A DNA stretch of 64,000 bases from NCBI RefSeq assembly GCF_006094275.1, contig NZ_CP034412.1:3038001-3102000 (forward strand). The letters are read 5' to 3'. Below, piece by piece: positions 56,710 to 64,000 of this stretch; within the stretch, counting starts at the first letter, position 1, and each line of letters begins with the position of its first letter. The notes below the pieces were generated by a model. It ran no database searches. It saw nothing but the letters and a program-made list of their open reading frames with translations, and had not been told where the DNA came from. The translations under genes were made by a program, and so were the position numbers. The DNA is from Glutamicibacter creatinolyticus. Its GTDB lineage: Bacteria; Actinomycetota; Actinomycetes; Actinomycetales; Micrococcaceae.

Positions 56710-56777
56710 TTATTCTCCAATCTTCTTCAGGTTTGGGTAGAGCGGGTGGGCCGCAGCCAAATCCAGCACCCGCTGCT
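56710..56777 (-). pseudogene. Out-of-frame remnant of the glyA C-terminus
   Basis: Between the present glyA stop (56778) and soxB, another frame encodes [19 protein letters not shown] then NLKKIGE and a TAA at 56710-56712. That is the expected C-terminal end of serine hydroxymethyltransferase. It is out of frame with the rest because of an internal loss just before it. Confidence 0.8.
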
Positions 56778-57953
56778 TCAACTCCCCAAGCTTGCCCGTA
56801 CTACCGTCGCCAACGCCGGGGTACCGATCCGCAACCCCGAAGTCACCATCGGCGGACGCGGATCAAACGGCACCGCATTACGGTTCACCGTGATCTCCAC
56901 CTGCGCCAACAAATCCTCGGCCTGCTGGCCATCGAGCTCGCTGTTACGCAGATCCACCAACACCAAATGCACATCAGTGCCGCCGGTCAGCACGCTGATC
57001 CCCTTGGCCTCGACATCGGCCTGGGACAAACGCTCAGCCAGGATCCGCGCACCAGCCAACGTCCGCTCCTGGCGTTCCTTGAACTCTTCCGACGCGGCGA
57101 TCTTGAACGCCACCGCCTTGCCCGCGATCACATGCTCCAACGGCCCACCCTGCTGACCCGGGAACACCGCCGAATTCAGCTTCTTGGCAATCTCCGCGTC
57201 ATTCGACAAAATAATCCCGCCACGCGGACCAGCCAAAGTCTTATGCGTGGTCGAGGTGACCACATGCGCATGCGGCACCGGCGACGGATGCAACCCCGCA
57301 GCCACCAAACCAGCAAAGTGCGCCATGTCCACGAACAGGTACGCACCGACCTTGTCCGCGATCTCACGGAAGCGGGCGAAGTCCAACTGGCGCGGATACG
57401 CCGACCAGCCGGCCACGATCATCTTCGGGGAATGCTCAACCGCCAGACGCTCGACCTCGTCCATGTCCACCAGGTTCGTCGCCTCATCCACCCCATAGGG
57501 CACGATATTGAACAACCGTCCGGAGAAGTTCAGCTTCATCCCCTGGGTCAAATGCCCGCCGGGGGCCAGATTCAACCCCAGCACGGTATCCCCCGGACCC
57601 ACCAGCGCGTGATACACCGACGCGTTGGCCTCCGCCCCCGAATGCGGCTGGACGTTGGCGAACTTCGCCCCGAACAACGCCTCCACGCGCTCAATGGCCA
57701 GAGTCTCGATCACGTCGACCTCTTCACAGCCACCGTAATAGCGGCGGCCCGGGTACCCCCCGCCATACTTGCTCGTAAACACCGACCCCTGCGCCTGCAT
57801 CACCGCCTGCGCCGTATGATTCTCCGAAGCAATCATCTCCAGGCCACGCTGCTGACGCGCCAACTCAGCATCAATCCGCGCCGCCACCTCAGGATCAAGC
57901 TCACCCAACGACTGGGTCAGCGATTCTGCGACGGGTGACTGGGTTTCCAGCAT
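56778..57953 (-). CDS. glyA: Serine hydroxymethyltransferase, C-terminally damaged
   Basis: 391 residues from the ATG at 57953 with GGAGGG upstream. [29 protein letters not shown], the PLP lysine in [13 protein letters not shown], and [13 protein letters not shown] are all intact. After ALAT the normal RGFG helix is missing; the frame runs into VVRASLGS and a stop. About 20 residues and the frame have been lost, with the true C-terminus left behind as a remnant. The enzyme joins glycine and methylene-THF to serine (or the reverse) and links SoxBDAG to SdaA. Third positions favour T and G (TTG, ATT, GGT, GCT), unlike soxB, so the gene or a segment of it looks imported. Residual activity is doubtful. 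Confidence 0.88.
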
Positions 57954-57986
57954 CTATCCCTCCAAAGTGTACGAATTGCCGACAAC

Positions 57987-57996
57987 TGATATATCA
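57987..57996. promoter_or_regulatory. Palindrome between glyA and gntR, probable GntR operator
   Basis: TGATATATCA is a perfect 10-bp palindrome centred in the 139-bp gap between the two divergent arms. FCD-type GntR proteins commonly bind AT-rich dyads of this size. A TATGAT at 58014-58019 may be the -10 of the rightward promoter. It would let one regulator control both arms. Confidence 0.6.
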
Positions 57997-58092
57997 ATGT
58001 CTGCGTCTTAGCGTATGATCTAACTCACAGCCCGTCAATGGGTTGGGGAATTATTTTTTACCAGCCCTTTCCAAGGCAGAATCAGCGAGTCC

Positions 58093-58647
58093 ATGGCGGA
58101 GCGGTCCTACCGGATTCTGCGCGACCGCCTGATCATGATGGACATCGCCCCCGGCGACCCGATCAACGAGGCGCTGCTCGCTACCGACCTCGGCATGGGG
58201 CGCACCCCCATCCGCGAGGCGCTGAAGCGCCTGGAAGTGGACCACCTGGTGATCTCCTACCCGCGCCGCGGGACCTTCGCCACCGGGGTGGACATCACCG
58301 AGCTGGCCGCCATCTCCGAAATGCGTCAGGTTCTGGAGCCGTTGGCCGCGCAGCGGGCGGCCGAGAATCGCGGCGGCGCCTTGCGCGAGGAGCTGACCCG
58401 CACGATGCAGGCGATCCGCCAGCTCGATCCATTGCGGGACCGGCGCCAGCTGATGGAATACGACCTGGAAGTGCACCGGCTCATTTATCGTGCCGCCCAG
58501 AACCACCACCTGGAGGAAACGCTGGTGCGCCTGGACAACCTCGCGACCCGGATCTGGTGCATGGTCCTGGACCGGTTACCGGACATTCACGCTCACATTT
58601 CCGAACACGCCACGCTGATCGAGCTGATCCTGGACGGGGCCAGATGA
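58093..58647 (+). CDS. GntR-family (FCD) transcriptional regulator, C-terminally shortened
   Basis: 184 residues. The winged helix-turn-helix is intact (YRILRDRLIMMDIAPGDPINEALLATDLGMGRTPIREALKRLE then YPRRGTFATGVD). The all-helical FCD effector domain starts at about 70 and shows YDLEVHRLIY and ISEHATLIELILDG, which hold the first metal/ligand positions. It then stops at GAR where family members continue for roughly 35 residues with the last helix and its His. The stop is fused to the ATG of the creatininase gene (ATGA), so the ending was probably removed. Binding to DNA may persist while ligand response is lost. It is the likely regulator of both arms. Confidence 0.85.
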   Translation: MAERSYRILRDRLIMMDIAPGDPINEALLATDLGMGRTPIREALKRLEVDHLVISYPRRGTFATGVDITELAAISEMRQVLEPLAAQRAAENRGGALREELTRTMQAIRQLDPLRDRRQLMEYDLEVHRLIYRAAQNHHLEETLVRLDNLATRIWCMVLDRLPDIHAHISEHATLIELILDGAR

Positions 58648-59369
58648 ACGGTCAGGATCCTGCCGGTCTCCCGTGGGTCCCCACCGATCAGCGCGAAGAT
58701 CTTGGTCAGGCGCTTATGCATGGTTTGCCGCTCCAGGTATCGACTGTCATCATTCCCACCGGCGCCACCGAGCAGCACGGGCCACACCTGCCGCTGGGCG
58801 TGGATGCGATGCTTTCCCGGGCCATCGCCGCCGAAGTGGCCCGGCAGGTGGGCGCGCTGGTGGCGCCGGAGTTCTCCTACGGCTATAAGTCGCAGCCCCG
58901 TTCCGGGGGCGGGAACCACCGGCTTGGGACCACCAGCCTGGGAGCAGCCGCGCTGACCGGCATGATCGACGATGTGGTCTCGTCCTTCATCGACCAAGGG
59001 GCGTGTAACGTCATCGTGCTGAACGGGCACTTTGAGAACTACCAGTTCCTCTATGAGGGTCTGGACAACGCGGTCGCCCGGGCGGGCCGCCAGGGCTCGG
59101 GTTCCCGCGGGGTGCTGATGTCCTACTGGGATTTCGTGGACGAGCACACCCTGGCCCAGGTTTTCCCTGACGGTTTCCTGGGATGGGACATCGAGCACGG
59201 CGGTGTGCTGGAAACATCGCTCATGCTGTTGCTGCATCCGGAACTGGTTGACATGGATCGGGTAGTCGATCATCCACCCGCCGTCCTGACGCCCTACGAC
59301 ATTTTTCCCGAAGGACCCGGGGCGCACCCCCGCCAGCGGGCATCATTCCACCGCTGGATCGCCTGCTGA
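58644..59369 (+). CDS. crnA: Creatininase (creatinine amidohydrolase), C-terminally altered
   Basis: 241 residues from the ATG at 58644. The metal ligands are present: E43, H45 and D54 (ATEQHGPHLPLGVD) and H129 with E131 (LNGHFEN), as are YGYKSQPRSGGGNH, GWDIEHGGVLETSLML and DRVVDHPPAVLTPYDIFPE. These match bacterial creatininase closely. It opens the lactam ring of creatinine to creatine. After YDIFPEGPG the sequence leaves the family (a shift of frame would give PASG, the expected continuation), so about 20-25 residues of the end are replaced or lost at the junction with the BCCT gene. The N-terminal 30 residues are also not clearly family-like. Confidence 0.85.
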   Translation: MNGQDPAGLPWVPTDQREDLGQALMHGLPLQVSTVIIPTGATEQHGPHLPLGVDAMLSRAIAAEVARQVGALVAPEFSYGYKSQPRSGGGNHRLGTTSLGAAALTGMIDDVVSSFIDQGACNVIVLNGHFENYQFLYEGLDNAVARAGRQGSGSRGVLMSYWDFVDEHTLAQVFPDGFLGWDIEHGGVLETSLMLLLHPELVDMDRVVDHPPAVLTPYDIFPEGPGAHPRQRASFHRWIAC

Positions 59370-59413
59370 TCCGCACCATTCCCCCGCTGCTCATCGGCGC
59401 GGTCATCCTGTGG

Positions 59414-61294
59414 GTGTTGCTGAACCCCACCGGCGCCTCAACGGTGATCTCCGACCTGCGAACCTTGGTGACCGGGAAGTTCACTTGGCTGTTCATCCTG
59501 TATTCGGCATTCGCGGTCATTGTCTGCATCTGGCTTTCCTTCAGCAGGGTGGGGCGCATCCGTCTGGGCGGGCCCAAGGCGAAACCCCAGCACAGCAAGT
59601 TTGCCTGGTATTCCATGCTGTTCGCCTGCGGCCAGGGCATCGGGCTGATCTTCTGGTCGGTTGCCGAACCGATCATGCTGCGCGATGAGAACCCGGTCAT
59701 TCCCGCCGGCGCAACGGGCGCCGCGGAGGGTGGGATCGTGTGGACCTATTTCCATTGGGGCCTGACGGCGTGGGCCATGTACTGCGTGGTGGCGGTCTGC
59801 CTGGCCTATTCGCACCACAACCTGGGCAAGACGTTGACCTTCAGGGAGGCCACCGTCGACATCCTGCCCAAGTGGTCGCAGCGCGGCGCCGGCGTAGTAG
59901 TTGAGCTGCTGGCCATCATTGCCACGGTGCTGGGGCTGGCCACCTCCTTCGGGTTCGCGGCCCTGCAGTTCAGTTCCGGGATCACCTCCTTCACCGGAAT
60001 CACCTCCAGCCCGATGATGTGGCTAATGGTCATCGCGGTGTTCGCCGGGATCACGGCGATTTCCGCGATCGTGGGCATCAACAAGGGGATGGCGCGCATA
60101 TCGAGCCTGAACTCGATCCTCAGCATTATCCTGGTGGGCGCGGTATTCATCTTTGGACCCACGCTCTACATCGTGTCCAACCTGTCCCAGACCTTCGGCA
60201 GCTTCATGTCGAACTTCATTCACATGAGCCTGTGGACCGATGCGGGAAGCACCGCCAATCCCCTCAGCACCTGGCAGGACAGCTGGAACGGCTGGTGGAC
60301 GGTGTTCATCTGGTGCTGGGTCATTGCCTTCTCGCCATTCGTCGCCGGGTTCATCGCCCGCATCTCCCGGGGCCGCACCATCCGCGAATTTGTCCTGGGG
60401 GTGACGGTGATCCCCACGCTGATCGTGATGATCTGGGTGGGCGTGATCGGTTCGGCCGCCATCTACTATGACGACCGCGCGGAGCGCGGCATCAGTGCCG
60501 CCGTAGCCGCCGACACCTCTGCGGGACTGTTCGCGATGCTGGACCATGTGCCGCTGATCGGCACGATCCTGCTGGTGGTGTCCACGATCCTGGTGGCCAC
60601 CTATTACGTCACCTCCCTGGATTCGGGGATCTATGCGCTCAGCGAGTTTGTTTCGGCGCCCAACAAGTCCGGGCCCATCTTCCGGGTGGTGTTGGTGCTG
60701 TCCATCGCCACCGTGGCCACGGTGCTGCTGACCCTGGGCGGCACGGCGGTCGTCGATACGGTGCAGACCGGCACGATCATTGGGGCATTCCCGTTCTCCT
60801 TCGTAATCCTCTTGATGATCGTCAATCTGATTCGACGTCTGCTCAAGCGCGACAAGGCGATCAAGCAGCTGGAAAAGGACATCAACAATCCCGACCCGTC
60901 GCTGATCTTCACCGCTGACCCCAGCGGTTCGGGCGCAATAGGAGTCGACCATGACCACGACCTCAAACAGCCCCACCAATGTCTCCGAGCTGGAGCGCCT
61001 GAAGACCCTGCACAACGGCTCGAAGCAGCAGCTGACCTTCTCCGACGCGGAGTTCGAGCGCCGCCTGGCGGGCCTGCGCCAGATCATGGCGGCCAAGTCG
61101 CTGGATGCAGTGATCCTCACCAGCTACCACGGCATCAAGTACTACTCGGACTTCCTGTACACCACGTTCGGACGCAACTACGCGCTGGTGGTCACCGCGA
61201 ACAACTCCACCACCGTGACCGCGAACATCGATGCCGGCATGCCGTGGCGCACCAGCTATGGCGAGAACATCGTGTACACCGACTGGAAGCGTGA
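59414..61294 (+). CDS. BCCT-family transporter (betaine/choline/carnitine type) without clear start or stop
   Basis: BCCT similarity runs from about 59345 to 60945. The first usable start in frame is the GTG at 59414, but protein-like sequence (LLIRTIPPLLIGAVILW) precedes it and belongs to the first helix, so the true start has been lost at the creatininase junction. Twelve helices follow; ACGQGIGLIFWSVAEP and the Trp-rich substrate segment FIWCWVIAFSPFVAGF then IARISRGRTIREF are hallmarks. At the 3' end no stop occurs at the expected place; the frame continues through the first 340 bp of the creatinase gene to 61294. A one-base shift would give a TAG at 60938-60940. By context the substrate is creatine, sarcosine or betaine. 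Confidence 0.8.
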   Translation: MLLNPTGASTVISDLRTLVTGKFTWLFILYSAFAVIVCIWLSFSRVGRIRLGGPKAKPQHSKFAWYSMLFACGQGIGLIFWSVAEPIMLRDENPVIPAGATGAAEGGIVWTYFHWGLTAWAMYCVVAVCLAYSHHNLGKTLTFREATVDILPKWSQRGAGVVVELLAIIATVLGLATSFGFAALQFSSGITSFTGITSSPMMWLMVIAVFAGITAISAIVGINKGMARISSLNSILSIILVGAVFIFGPTLYIVSNLSQTFGSFMSNFIHMSLWTDAGSTANPLSTWQDSWNGWWTVFIWCWVIAFSPFVAGFIARISRGRTIREFVLGVTVIPTLIVMIWVGVIGSAAIYYDDRAERGISAAVAADTSAGLFAMLDHVPLIGTILLVVSTILVATYYVTSLDSGIYALSEFVSAPNKSGPIFRVVLVLSIATVATVLLTLGGTAVVDTVQTGTIIGAFPFSFVILLMIVNLIRRLLKRDKAIKQLEKDINNPDPSLIFTADPSGSGAIGVDHDHDLKQPHQCLRAGAPEDPAQRLEAAADLLRRGVRAPPGGPAPDHGGQVAGCSDPHQLPRHQVLLGLPVHHVRTQLRAGGHREQLHHRDREHRCRHAVAHQLWREHRVHRLEA

Positions 61295-62204
61295 CAACTT
61301 CTTCTACGGACTGCAGGAGGCGCTCAAGCGTGACGGGGTAAAGGCGACCCGCATCGGCGTGGAAGATGACTTCCTGCCGGGCCTGACCCGCCAGCGCATC
61401 CAGGATGCGTTCCCCGGCGCCCAGCTGCTGGATGTCTCGCAGGATGCCATGCGTCAGCGCATGATCAAGTCCGCCGAGGAAATCGAGGTCATCAAGCACG
61501 GCGCCCGCATCGGCGACCTGGGCGGTGAGGCCATCAAGGCCGCGATCCGCGAGGGGATCACCGAGTACGAGGTGGCACTGATCGGCACCGAGGCGATGGT
61601 GCACGAGATCGCCAGGACCTTCCCTCACCGCGAAGTGCGCGACACCTGGGTGTGGTTCCAGTCCGGCATCAACACCGACGGCGCCCACAACTGGGCCACC
61701 ACCCGCAAGCTGCAGCGCGGGGACATCCTGTCGCTGAACTGCTTCCCGATGACCTCGGGCTACTACACCGCACTGGAGCGCACCTTGTTCCTGGGTCAGC
61801 CCGACGAGCGCAGCCTGCAGCTGTGGAATGTGAACGTCGAGGTCCACAAGCGCGGCCTGGAGCTAATCAAGCCCGGCGCGGTCTGCAAGGACATCGCCGC
61901 CGAGCTGAACGAGATCTACATTTCCCACGGCCTGCTGCCCAACCGCACCTTCGGCTACGGCCACTCCTTCGGAGTGCTTTCGCACTACTACGGCCGTGAA
62001 GCCGGCCTGGAGCTGCGCGAGGACATCGACACCGTCCTGGAGCCGGGCATGGTGGTGTCGATGGAGCCGATGATCACCGTGATGGATGGCGAGCCGGGGG
62101 CCGGCGGCTACCGCGAGCACGACATCCTGGTCGTGGGCGAAGATGGCGCGGAGAACATCACGAAGTTCGGCTTCGGCCCGGAGAACAACATCATCGACGC
62201 CTAG
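60951..62204 (+). CDS. creA: Creatinase (creatine amidinohydrolase)
   Basis: 417 residues from the ATG at 60951 with AGGAG nine bases upstream. It has the M24 'pita-bread' fold and matches creatinase from end to end: ILTSYHGIKYYSDFLY, IVYTDWKRDNFF, RMIKSAEEIEVIKHGARI, the catalytic His 246 in SGINTDGAHN, LSLNCFPMTSGYYTALERTLF, GYGHSFGVLSHYYGREAGLE and SMEPMI. Creatinase splits creatine into sarcosine and urea without metal ions. It is one of the few fully intact genes of the rightward arm, with a proper start and stop. It supplies sarcosine to SoxBDAG. Confidence 0.93.
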   Translation: MTTTSNSPTNVSELERLKTLHNGSKQQLTFSDAEFERRLAGLRQIMAAKSLDAVILTSYHGIKYYSDFLYTTFGRNYALVVTANNSTTVTANIDAGMPWRTSYGENIVYTDWKRDNFFYGLQEALKRDGVKATRIGVEDDFLPGLTRQRIQDAFPGAQLLDVSQDAMRQRMIKSAEEIEVIKHGARIGDLGGEAIKAAIREGITEYEVALIGTEAMVHEIARTFPHREVRDTWVWFQSGINTDGAHNWATTRKLQRGDILSLNCFPMTSGYYTALERTLFLGQPDERSLQLWNVNVEVHKRGLELIKPGAVCKDIAAELNEIYISHGLLPNRTFGYGHSFGVLSHYYGREAGLELREDIDTVLEPGMVVSMEPMITVMDGEPGAGGYREHDILVVGEDGAENITKFGFGPENNIIDA

Positions 62205-62265
62205 GCCGCTCCACCCCGATCTGGGCCCGACACTCAGCGGACAACAGCGCCCAGACCCCGGTGGC

Positions 62266-63522
62266 GTGGGCAGGGCCACCCGGCGCAAGGTCGTTGCCGC
62301 GAGCTTCATCGGCAACTTCGTCGAGTGGTTCGACTACGCGGCCTACGGCTACCTGGCGGTGACCATCTCGGTGGTCTTCTTCCCCGAATCCGCACCGCAG
62401 ACCGCGCTGCTGATGACCTTCGCCCTGTTCGCGATTTCCTTCCTAGTCCGTCCACTGGGCGGTTTCGTCTGGGGTCACATTGGCGACCGCATTGGCCGGC
62501 GCGAGGCGCTGAGCTGGTCAATCCTGCTGATGTCCGGGGCCACCTTCTGCATCGCCCTGCTGCCGGGCTACGCCAGCATCGGCATCGGCGCCCCGCTCCT
62601 GCTGCTGGCCTTGCGCCTGGTCCAGGGGTTCTCCGCCTCCGGTGAGTATGCCGGCGCGGCGGCCTTCCTGGTCGAATACGCCCCGGCGAACCGGCGCGGA
62701 CTGTACGCCGCGGTGGTTCCGGCCAGCACCGCCACCGGCCTGCTGCTCGGCTCGCTGATGGCAGCCCTGCTCACCGGCCTGCTCCAGGCGGATCAGATGG
62801 AGTCCTGGGGCTGGCGCCTGCCCTTCCTCCTGGCCGCACCGATGGGCCTGATCGGACGCTACATCCGTACGAAGCTGGAGGACTCGCCGGCCTTCAAGGA
62901 GCTGGCTCAGGAGGACGAGGTCATCAAGGCGCCGGTCAAGTCCCTGTTCCGCGACCACTGGCGCCGCCTGGTGCTGGCCGCCGGCGCGGTGCTTTTGAAC
63001 GCGGTCGGCTTCTACGTCATCCTGTCCTACATGCCCACCTACCTGTCCCAGGAGCTGGGACTCGATGAGACGGCGTCCTACGTCGCCACCACGGTGGCGC
63101 TGGTGACCTACATCGGCTTCATCTTCATCACCGGCATGCTTTCGGACAAGTTCGGGCGCAAGCGGGTCCTGATGAGCGCCTCGGTGCTGTTCGTCCTGTT
63201 CACCGTGCCGGCGTTCATGCTGCTGGACACCGGCAACTTCCTGTTGATCATCCTGGTCCAGATCGCCCTGGGAGCCATGCTGACCCTGAATGACGGCACC
63301 CTGCCCAGCTATCTGGCCGAAATGTTCCCCACCCGCGTGCGCTACTCCGGTTTCGCGGTCTCCTTCAACCTGTCCAACGCATTGTTCGGCGGCACCGCAC
63401 CCTTTATGGCAACCCTGCTGATCGCCGCCTCCGGCCACCCGCCGGCCCCGGCCTGGTCCCTAGCTTCATCGGAAACTTCGTGGAGTGGTTCGACTATGCC
63501 GCCTACGGCTACCTGGCAGTGA
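62266..63522 (+). CDS. MFS transporter (MHS family), first copy, fused at its 3' end
   Basis: About 418 residues if started at the GTG at 62266, which has no ribosome binding site; no ATG is available in frame, so the true start may be missing. RRKVVAASFIGNFVEWFDYAAYGYLA and HIGDRIGRREALSW mark the MHS group, as do LVQGFSASGEYAGAAAFLVE and DKFGRKRVLMSAS. Eleven helices are complete. After IAASGHPPAPAW the sequence jumps into the beginning of a second, related gene in another frame and stops at 63522. About 30-50 residues of the natural C-terminus are gone. The likely substrate is creatinine, creatine or a related zwitterion. Confidence 0.8.
   Translation: MGRATRRKVVAASFIGNFVEWFDYAAYGYLAVTISVVFFPESAPQTALLMTFALFAISFLVRPLGGFVWGHIGDRIGRREALSWSILLMSGATFCIALLPGYASIGIGAPLLLLALRLVQGFSASGEYAGAAAFLVEYAPANRRGLYAAVVPASTATGLLLGSLMAALLTGLLQADQMESWGWRLPFLLAAPMGLIGRYIRTKLEDSPAFKELAQEDEVIKAPVKSLFRDHWRRLVLAAGAVLLNAVGFYVILSYMPTYLSQELGLDETASYVATTVALVTYIGFIFITGMLSDKFGRKRVLMSASVLFVLFTVPAFMLLDTGNFLLIILVQIALGAMLTLNDGTLPSYLAEMFPTRVRYSGFAVSFNLSNALFGGTAPFMATLLIAASGHPPAPAWSLASSETSWSGSTMPPTATWQ
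62509..62610. repeat. 102-bp segment identical in the two tandem MFS genes
   Basis: Bases 62509-62610 recur without a change at 63669-63770 (offset 1160). Other identical runs occur shortly after. Flanking codons differ at many third positions, so local gene conversion after duplication is likely. Confidence 0.85.
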
Positions 63523-64000
63523 CCATCGCGGCGGTCTTCTTCCCCAGCGACGACAGGCAACTGGCCCTGCTGATGACCTTTGGTGTTTTCGCCATCTCCT
63601 TCCTGGTCCGTCCACTGGGCGGATTCGTGTGGGGACACCTCGGCGACCGAATTGGTCGCAAGGAGGCACTGAGCTGGTCAATCCTGCTGATGTCCGGGGC
63701 CACCTTCTGCATCGCCCTGCTGCCGGGCTACGCCAGCATCGGCATCGGCGCCCCGCTCCTGCTGCTGGCCCTGCGCCTAGTGCAGGGCTTTTCCGCCTCG
63801 GGCGAGTATGCCGGTGCCTCGGCGTTCCTGGTCGAGTACGCCCCGGCGAACCGGCGCGGACTGTATGCCGCGGTGGTTCCGGCCAGCACCGCCACCGGCC
63901 TGCTGCTCGGCTCACTGTTGGCCGCCCTGCTGACCGGGCCTGCTCCAGGCAGATCAGATGGAGCCCTGGGGCTGGCGCATTCCCTTCGTGCTGGCGGCCC
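63462..64000 (+). pseudogene. MFS transporter (MHS family), second copy, no start, frameshifted, runs off the right edge
   Basis: Similarity to the first copy begins abruptly at SFIGNFVEWFDYAAYG (63462), joined to the 3' part of copy one in a different frame and without any start codon. It keeps FFPSDDRQLALLMTFGVFA, GHLGDRIGRKEALSW and SASGEYAGASAFLVE. At 63936-63938 it has GGG where copy one has GG, and the frame shifts, so QADQMEPWGWR is read only after correction. The extra base lies in a homopolymer and could be a sequencing error. As read, no complete transporter can be made. The 3' end lies outside the window. Confidence 0.8.

Follow-up and report, generated by a model that had tools for sequence, protein, structure and literature searches.

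The right end of the DNA analysed here raises the question of whether a bacterium is losing its creatinine genes or whether its genome was assembled wrongly. This DNA (the window) is a stretch of 64,000 nucleotides from Glutamicibacter creatinolyticus, spanning 3,038,001–3,102,000 on a single contig of 3,309,128 bases. A sequence-only reading had described serial lesions at gene ends throughout the creatinine arm on the right of the window, and attributed them either to recent decay by small deletions or to a mis-assembled contig part. Our comparisons within the genome and with relatives strongly support mis-assembly: we regard these clipped genes as almost certainly an assembly artefact of some form. 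We put the probability at approximately nine in ten that the window arm is a false filler copy, in an organism with one intact creatinine arm. Domains of SHMT, GntR/FCD, creatininase, BCCT, creatinase/M24 and MFS were called in the window arm using Pfam. G+C content in 2-kb steps is 0.64–0.74 in the first 50 kb of the window and 0.63–0.67 in the last 14 kb.

A genome search located a second copy of the gntR-to-MFS arm (copy B) on the minus strand of the same contig at 3,235,089–3,246,479, approximately 140 kb from the copy in the window (copy A). Gene ends are whole in copy B from gntR through the MFS genes. Its frames comprise a full-length gntR (240 aa), a full-length creatininase (263 aa), a full-length BCCT transporter (596 aa), two MFS proteins (458 aa each) and, on the opposite strand, a regulator of 551 aa with PucR domains. 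The creatininase domain covers profile positions 5–235 of 238 in copy B and 15–196 in copy A, and the corresponding coverage of the FCD domain is 2–123 of 125 and 2–110. Creatinase, rightly read as intact in the window, has the same 417-residue frame in both copies; the creatinase domains were called on the window frame, which is identical to that of copy B. The creatininase, creatinase, BCCT and GntR genes of a creatinine degradation cluster are all full-length in copy B, and the gene order from glyA to an IclR-type gene equals that of a relative, G008. In this form the creatinine arm looks complete and ordinary. The glyA gene of copy B is itself cut in half.

Alignment showed that copy A equals copy B minus segments of approximately 51 to 1,657 bp (Table 1). 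Seven segments are missing, which confirms the serial lesions: approximately 51 bp from the start of gntR and 147 bp from its end; 1,657 bp with most of the opposite-strand PucR-type regulator and the creatininase start; 240 bp with the creatininase end and the BCCT start; 375 bp from the BCCT end to just upstream of creatinase; 287 bp with the creatinase–MFS1 gap and the MFS1 start; and 469 bp from the MFS1 end to the MFS2 start. The last four losses match earlier observations that creatininase loses its end at the BCCT junction, that BCCT has neither start nor stop of its own, that MFS1 lacks a convincing start and that it runs into MFS2. The break of glyA near its end and the +1 shift of MFS2 were also correctly seen; the extra base in MFS2 was located by the one-base shift in the offset of the exact matches to copy B. 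The description of gntR needs correction in two details. The gene does stop early, by approximately 24 C-terminal residues of the gntR of copy B rather than approximately 35, and its stop does fall on an ATG, which is not the start of creatininase but is antisense to the regulator gene. MFS1 of copy A consists of exact stretches that switch between MFS1 and MFS2 of copy B, and MFS2 of copy A has the reciprocal order; these mosaics would be expected if reads or contigs of the two paralogues had been cross-placed. No near-identical second copy of window bases 1–56,740 was found in the genome (longest matches: 80% over 1.4 kb, 71–73% elsewhere and 38 bp at 95%), which agrees with the statement that genes in the remainder of the window are almost all clean.

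Table 1. Parts of copy A in window numbering, with their relation to copy B
Part	Position	Strand	Remarks
glyA, 3' part	56735..56803	-	exact 69-bp copy at a third glyA (2613852-2613920); both sites break after the base at 56803
glyA, middle	56804..57328	-	no second copy among the matches listed in the genome search
glyA, 5' half, and gap before gntR	57329..58082	-	also in copy B; patch of 12 substitutions at 57543-57786
gntR body (GntR/FCD)	58083..58637	+	both ends clipped relative to copy B
Scrap of PucR-type regulator, 102 bp, helix-turn-helix end	58638..58739	-	remainder of the gene missing
Creatininase body without start and end	58740..59339	+	extra base at 59313 relative to copy B
BCCT transporter body without start and stop	59340..60936	+	1,597 bp exact to copy B
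Creatinase	60937..62215	+	complete frame 60951-62204
MFS1	62216..63461	+	mosaic of MFS1 and MFS2 of copy B (1-2-1-2-1); both ends clipped
MFS2	63462..64000	+	opposite mosaic; start clipped; extra base between 63938 and 63964 relative to copy B; continues past the window

The blocks between the joins are exact in the two copies over 551, 574, 1,597 and 1,267 bp. Six joins were examined for shared bases, and the numbers found (none at five joins and one at the sixth) rule out microhomology or slippage at the joins of copy A. Between 57,329 and 62,540, the copies differ by 25 mismatches and two one-base indels; 13 of the mismatches are located within 58 bp of a join and the other 12 in a patch within glyA. 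The build-up of substitutions of a dead copy was not found, differences being confined to the neighbourhood of joins and to this patch.

The bases private to copy A at the 13 join-side places match those of other species. Eleven equal the base of G009, identified as G. soli NHPC-3 by 100% identity to that named record over 4,269 bp, from which the other two differ, and 10 equal that of G008; the base of copy B occurs at 0/13 places in either genome. The alignment was centred on copy A, which biases it slightly toward this copy, and a random-letter control with the same places, alignment and bias gave a mean of 3.4 matches (maximum 5) for G. soli and 2.5 (maximum 8) for G008 in 60 runs each. 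G. soli is the best fit of 14 sequences, but coverage of the 13 places is mostly low: the 12 sequences other than these two align at 0 to 8, and the next best fits are L036 (5/8) and three sequences with 3/3 or 3/4. Comparing 14 sequences at 13 places does not name the exact reference genome. The glyA patch differs in kind. Nine of its 12 substitutions are to C on the plus strand, identity is exact on both sides, and several changes fall at positions invariant in the aligned loci (for example, 31/31 at 57,760, with some loci from one genome). None of those aligned is shared with G001 (0/12), G008 (0/12) or G. soli (0/5), which argues against reference bases as the source of the patch; our guess is read error.

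Copy A keeps 4,945 of the 7,702 positions that copy B has between glyA and the start of MFS1, and kept positions are distinguished from dropped ones by their local similarity to a relative. The AUC is 0.967 for G008, 0.962 for G001, 0.913 for G. soli and 0.709 for G003 (0.965, 0.962, 0.912 and 0.707 at coding positions alone), values that describe rather than test, given the dependence between adjacent positions and the heavy weight of the regulator gene. The apparent preference of the lesions for gene boundaries is better explained by boundaries being least alike between species. Because retention follows similarity to relatives, most of the body of the regulator gene was also lost, with only the scrap of 102 bp left.

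The abnormal stretch does not end with the window; it passes 64,000 and reaches approximately 73,559 in window numbering. The remainder of MFS2 and an IclR-type gene are followed by 124 bp (3,103,256–3,103,379) that have no near-identical source in the genome. Next, 27 abutting pieces, each 72 to 1,393 bp long, make up 3,103,380–3,111,559 (65,380–73,559 in window numbering), leaving uncovered gaps of at most 8 bases. Identity to the source is at least 97% for 24 of the 27 pieces and 90, 95 and 95% for the others. Both orientations occur among the sources, which lie at approximately 0.26, 0.28, 0.89, 1.24, 1.49, 2.14, 2.92, 3.13 and 3.25 Mb, and the patchwork includes a second DnaB frame (454 codons) and a ParA/AAA-type frame. 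We know of no cellular process that produces such a patchwork.

The same scar was found at other multi-copy loci, namely, the rRNA spacers and a third glyA. This genome carries four genes each for 16S and 23S rRNA, whereas each of five relatives has six of each; four operons could be a true species difference. The 16S–23S spacers measure 553, 259, 11 and 260 bp here, compared with 575–646 bp in all 30 operons of the five relatives. The 11-bp spacer lies between a complete 16S gene and a complete 23S gene, which together occupy 475,494–480,179. The third glyA (2,613,852–2,613,989), which we read as part of the glycine cleavage genes, is two pieces of 69 bp set exactly end to end, approximately 1 kb between them being absent. 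The first of its breaks coincides to the base with the glyA break of copy A.

Relatives were used to examine the gene order around the two copies. The junction search covered 18 genomes including the own genome, the relatives all being of other species. BCCT and creatinase matches lie 251–371 bp apart in 8/8 relatives having both; the short junctions of copy A, which the sequence-only reading had suggested looking for in close relatives, were not seen. G001 and G008 have the sarcosine oxidase (sox) genes, glyA and the creatinine genes in one contiguous run, and gntR directly follows sox in G003. The left flank of copy A (sox) is the neighbour known from these three Glutamicibacter clusters, whereas the intact arm is separated from the sox genes in this assembly. 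Copy B stops at its outer end inside glyA and meets DNA that adjoins SDR genes in relatives, which suggests that copy B belongs beside the sox genes. The filler is followed on its right by a membrane transport gene (Mem_trans domain) and, in our reading, the urate genes. The Mem_trans transporter is 221–231 bp from an SDR gene in G001, G003, G006 and G015, and the urate-side and SDR matches are 1.1–5.3 kb apart in 7/7 relatives searched, compared with approximately 133 kb here. Rotating the block of approximately 135 kb between copies A and B (approximately 3,111,560–3,246,479) would restore both adjacencies, that of the sox–glyA side to copy B and that of the transporter to SDR. The block is probably inverted in the assembly, and an intact single arm adjoining the sarcosine oxidase genes is the most likely arrangement in the organism.

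Other explanations were weighed against these data. The organism might have two real creatinine arms, the one on the sox side having been garbled by repeat collapse in a short-read assembly. Repeat collapse would also yield exact blocks and paralogue mosaics, and the lower number of rRNA operons than in relatives fits it. We nevertheless consider two arms improbable. A single creatinase match was found in 11/17 relatives, none in 6/17 and two in 0/17; the outer end of copy B, in glyA and against SDR-side DNA, is as expected if copy B adjoins sox; and other-species bases at the joins do not follow from collapse. Low-coverage or collapsed sites, proposed earlier as the kind of artefact, are only roughly right; a better fit is the filling of gaps with a related genome as guide.

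Real events in the cell fare worse. The arm could have been duplicated, after which one copy lost pieces at gene boundaries in a recent series of deletions; the deposited sequence does contain the deletions, and loss in one copy would be tolerated because the other is intact. The zero substitutions in blocks of 1,597 and 1,267 bp beside seven deletions speak against this account, as do the reciprocal MFS mosaics and join-side bases that match G. soli. Microhomology is absent at the joins, although short repeats are common at deletions and not required, and the patchwork of fragments on the right has no place in such a history. Recent decay by small deletions, one of the two explanations offered before, is accordingly rejected as very improbable. 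Still less credible is that template switching or end joining, in one real burst, brought dozens of fragments together at one place. Such a burst would leave a patchwork of fragments in both orientations, and error-prone copying would fit the changes near the joins. It would not be expected to limit the pieces to parts alike between species, to give join-side bases equal to those of another species or to leave the same scar in rRNA spacers. Template-switching rearrangements are known from eukaryotes, and we are aware of no such process in bacteria. A bacterial counterpart, in which dozens of chromosomal segments, perhaps with DNA of a related species, were copied end to end in the cell, has a very low probability.

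The evidence for a filler produced during assembly includes an intact second copy whose kept blocks are exact, the foreign bases at block edges and the like scar at other multi-copy loci. A short-read assembly may have broken inside glyA, a gene present in more than one copy. The true continuation of the sarcosine oxidase–glyA side would be the contig with copy B and the block of approximately 135 kb, placed the wrong way round. The resulting hole would have been filled with the strain's own pieces resembling a related Glutamicibacter reference; gene ends, intergenic DNA and most of the regulator gene, too unlike the reference, would have been omitted, and a few reference bases would have remained at block edges. 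Strain LGCM 259, presumably the strain sequenced here, is described in the available part of a paper on it as sequenced on HiSeq with 2 × 150 paired-end reads, assembled with SPAdes 3.9 and deposited as complete (PMC7355418); the assembly account in that part mentions neither a reference nor gap filling. Authors of this paper seem to overlap with those of work on Corynebacterium, in which, according to the part available, contigs were mapped to a scaffold or a reference after finishing with GapBlaster and FGAP (PMC6841979); the GapBlaster tool has its own paper (PMC4865197). No published account of the fault in this genome was recognised in the literature searched.

Comparable faults are on record. 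Inversion, contig-order and gap-closing errors are reported in deposited complete genomes of Corynebacterium pseudotuberculosis in the available part of PMC6841979. The present case would resemble them in its probably inverted block at a repeat, its missing regions and a presumed finishing with a gap filler or reference, and differs in the probable false second copy of conserved segments, whereas inversions and losses are described there. As in false duplications of genome assemblies, a region is present twice where the organism probably has one; unlike those, the presumed false copy here lacks gene ends and contains other-species bases. Taken at face value, the sequence suggests a decaying creatinine operon and duplicated genes for creatinase, BCCT, DnaB and a ParA-like protein, and counts of pseudogenes, gene copies or rearrangements from this genome would mislead. 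In a collection with one genome per species, the error represents the whole species. Exact blocks without ends, foreign bases at joins and an 11-bp 16S–23S spacer are signs by which other genomes finished from short reads could be screened.

The glyA gene breaks the assembly of a relative as well: a contig of G. soli NHPC-3 ends in glyA, 2 bases past the glyA match. No tRNA or Rfam family was found at the outer end of copy B. An 87-bp segment (3,246,480–3,246,566) beside the cut glyA of copy B recurs once in the genome and is present in 8/17 relatives.
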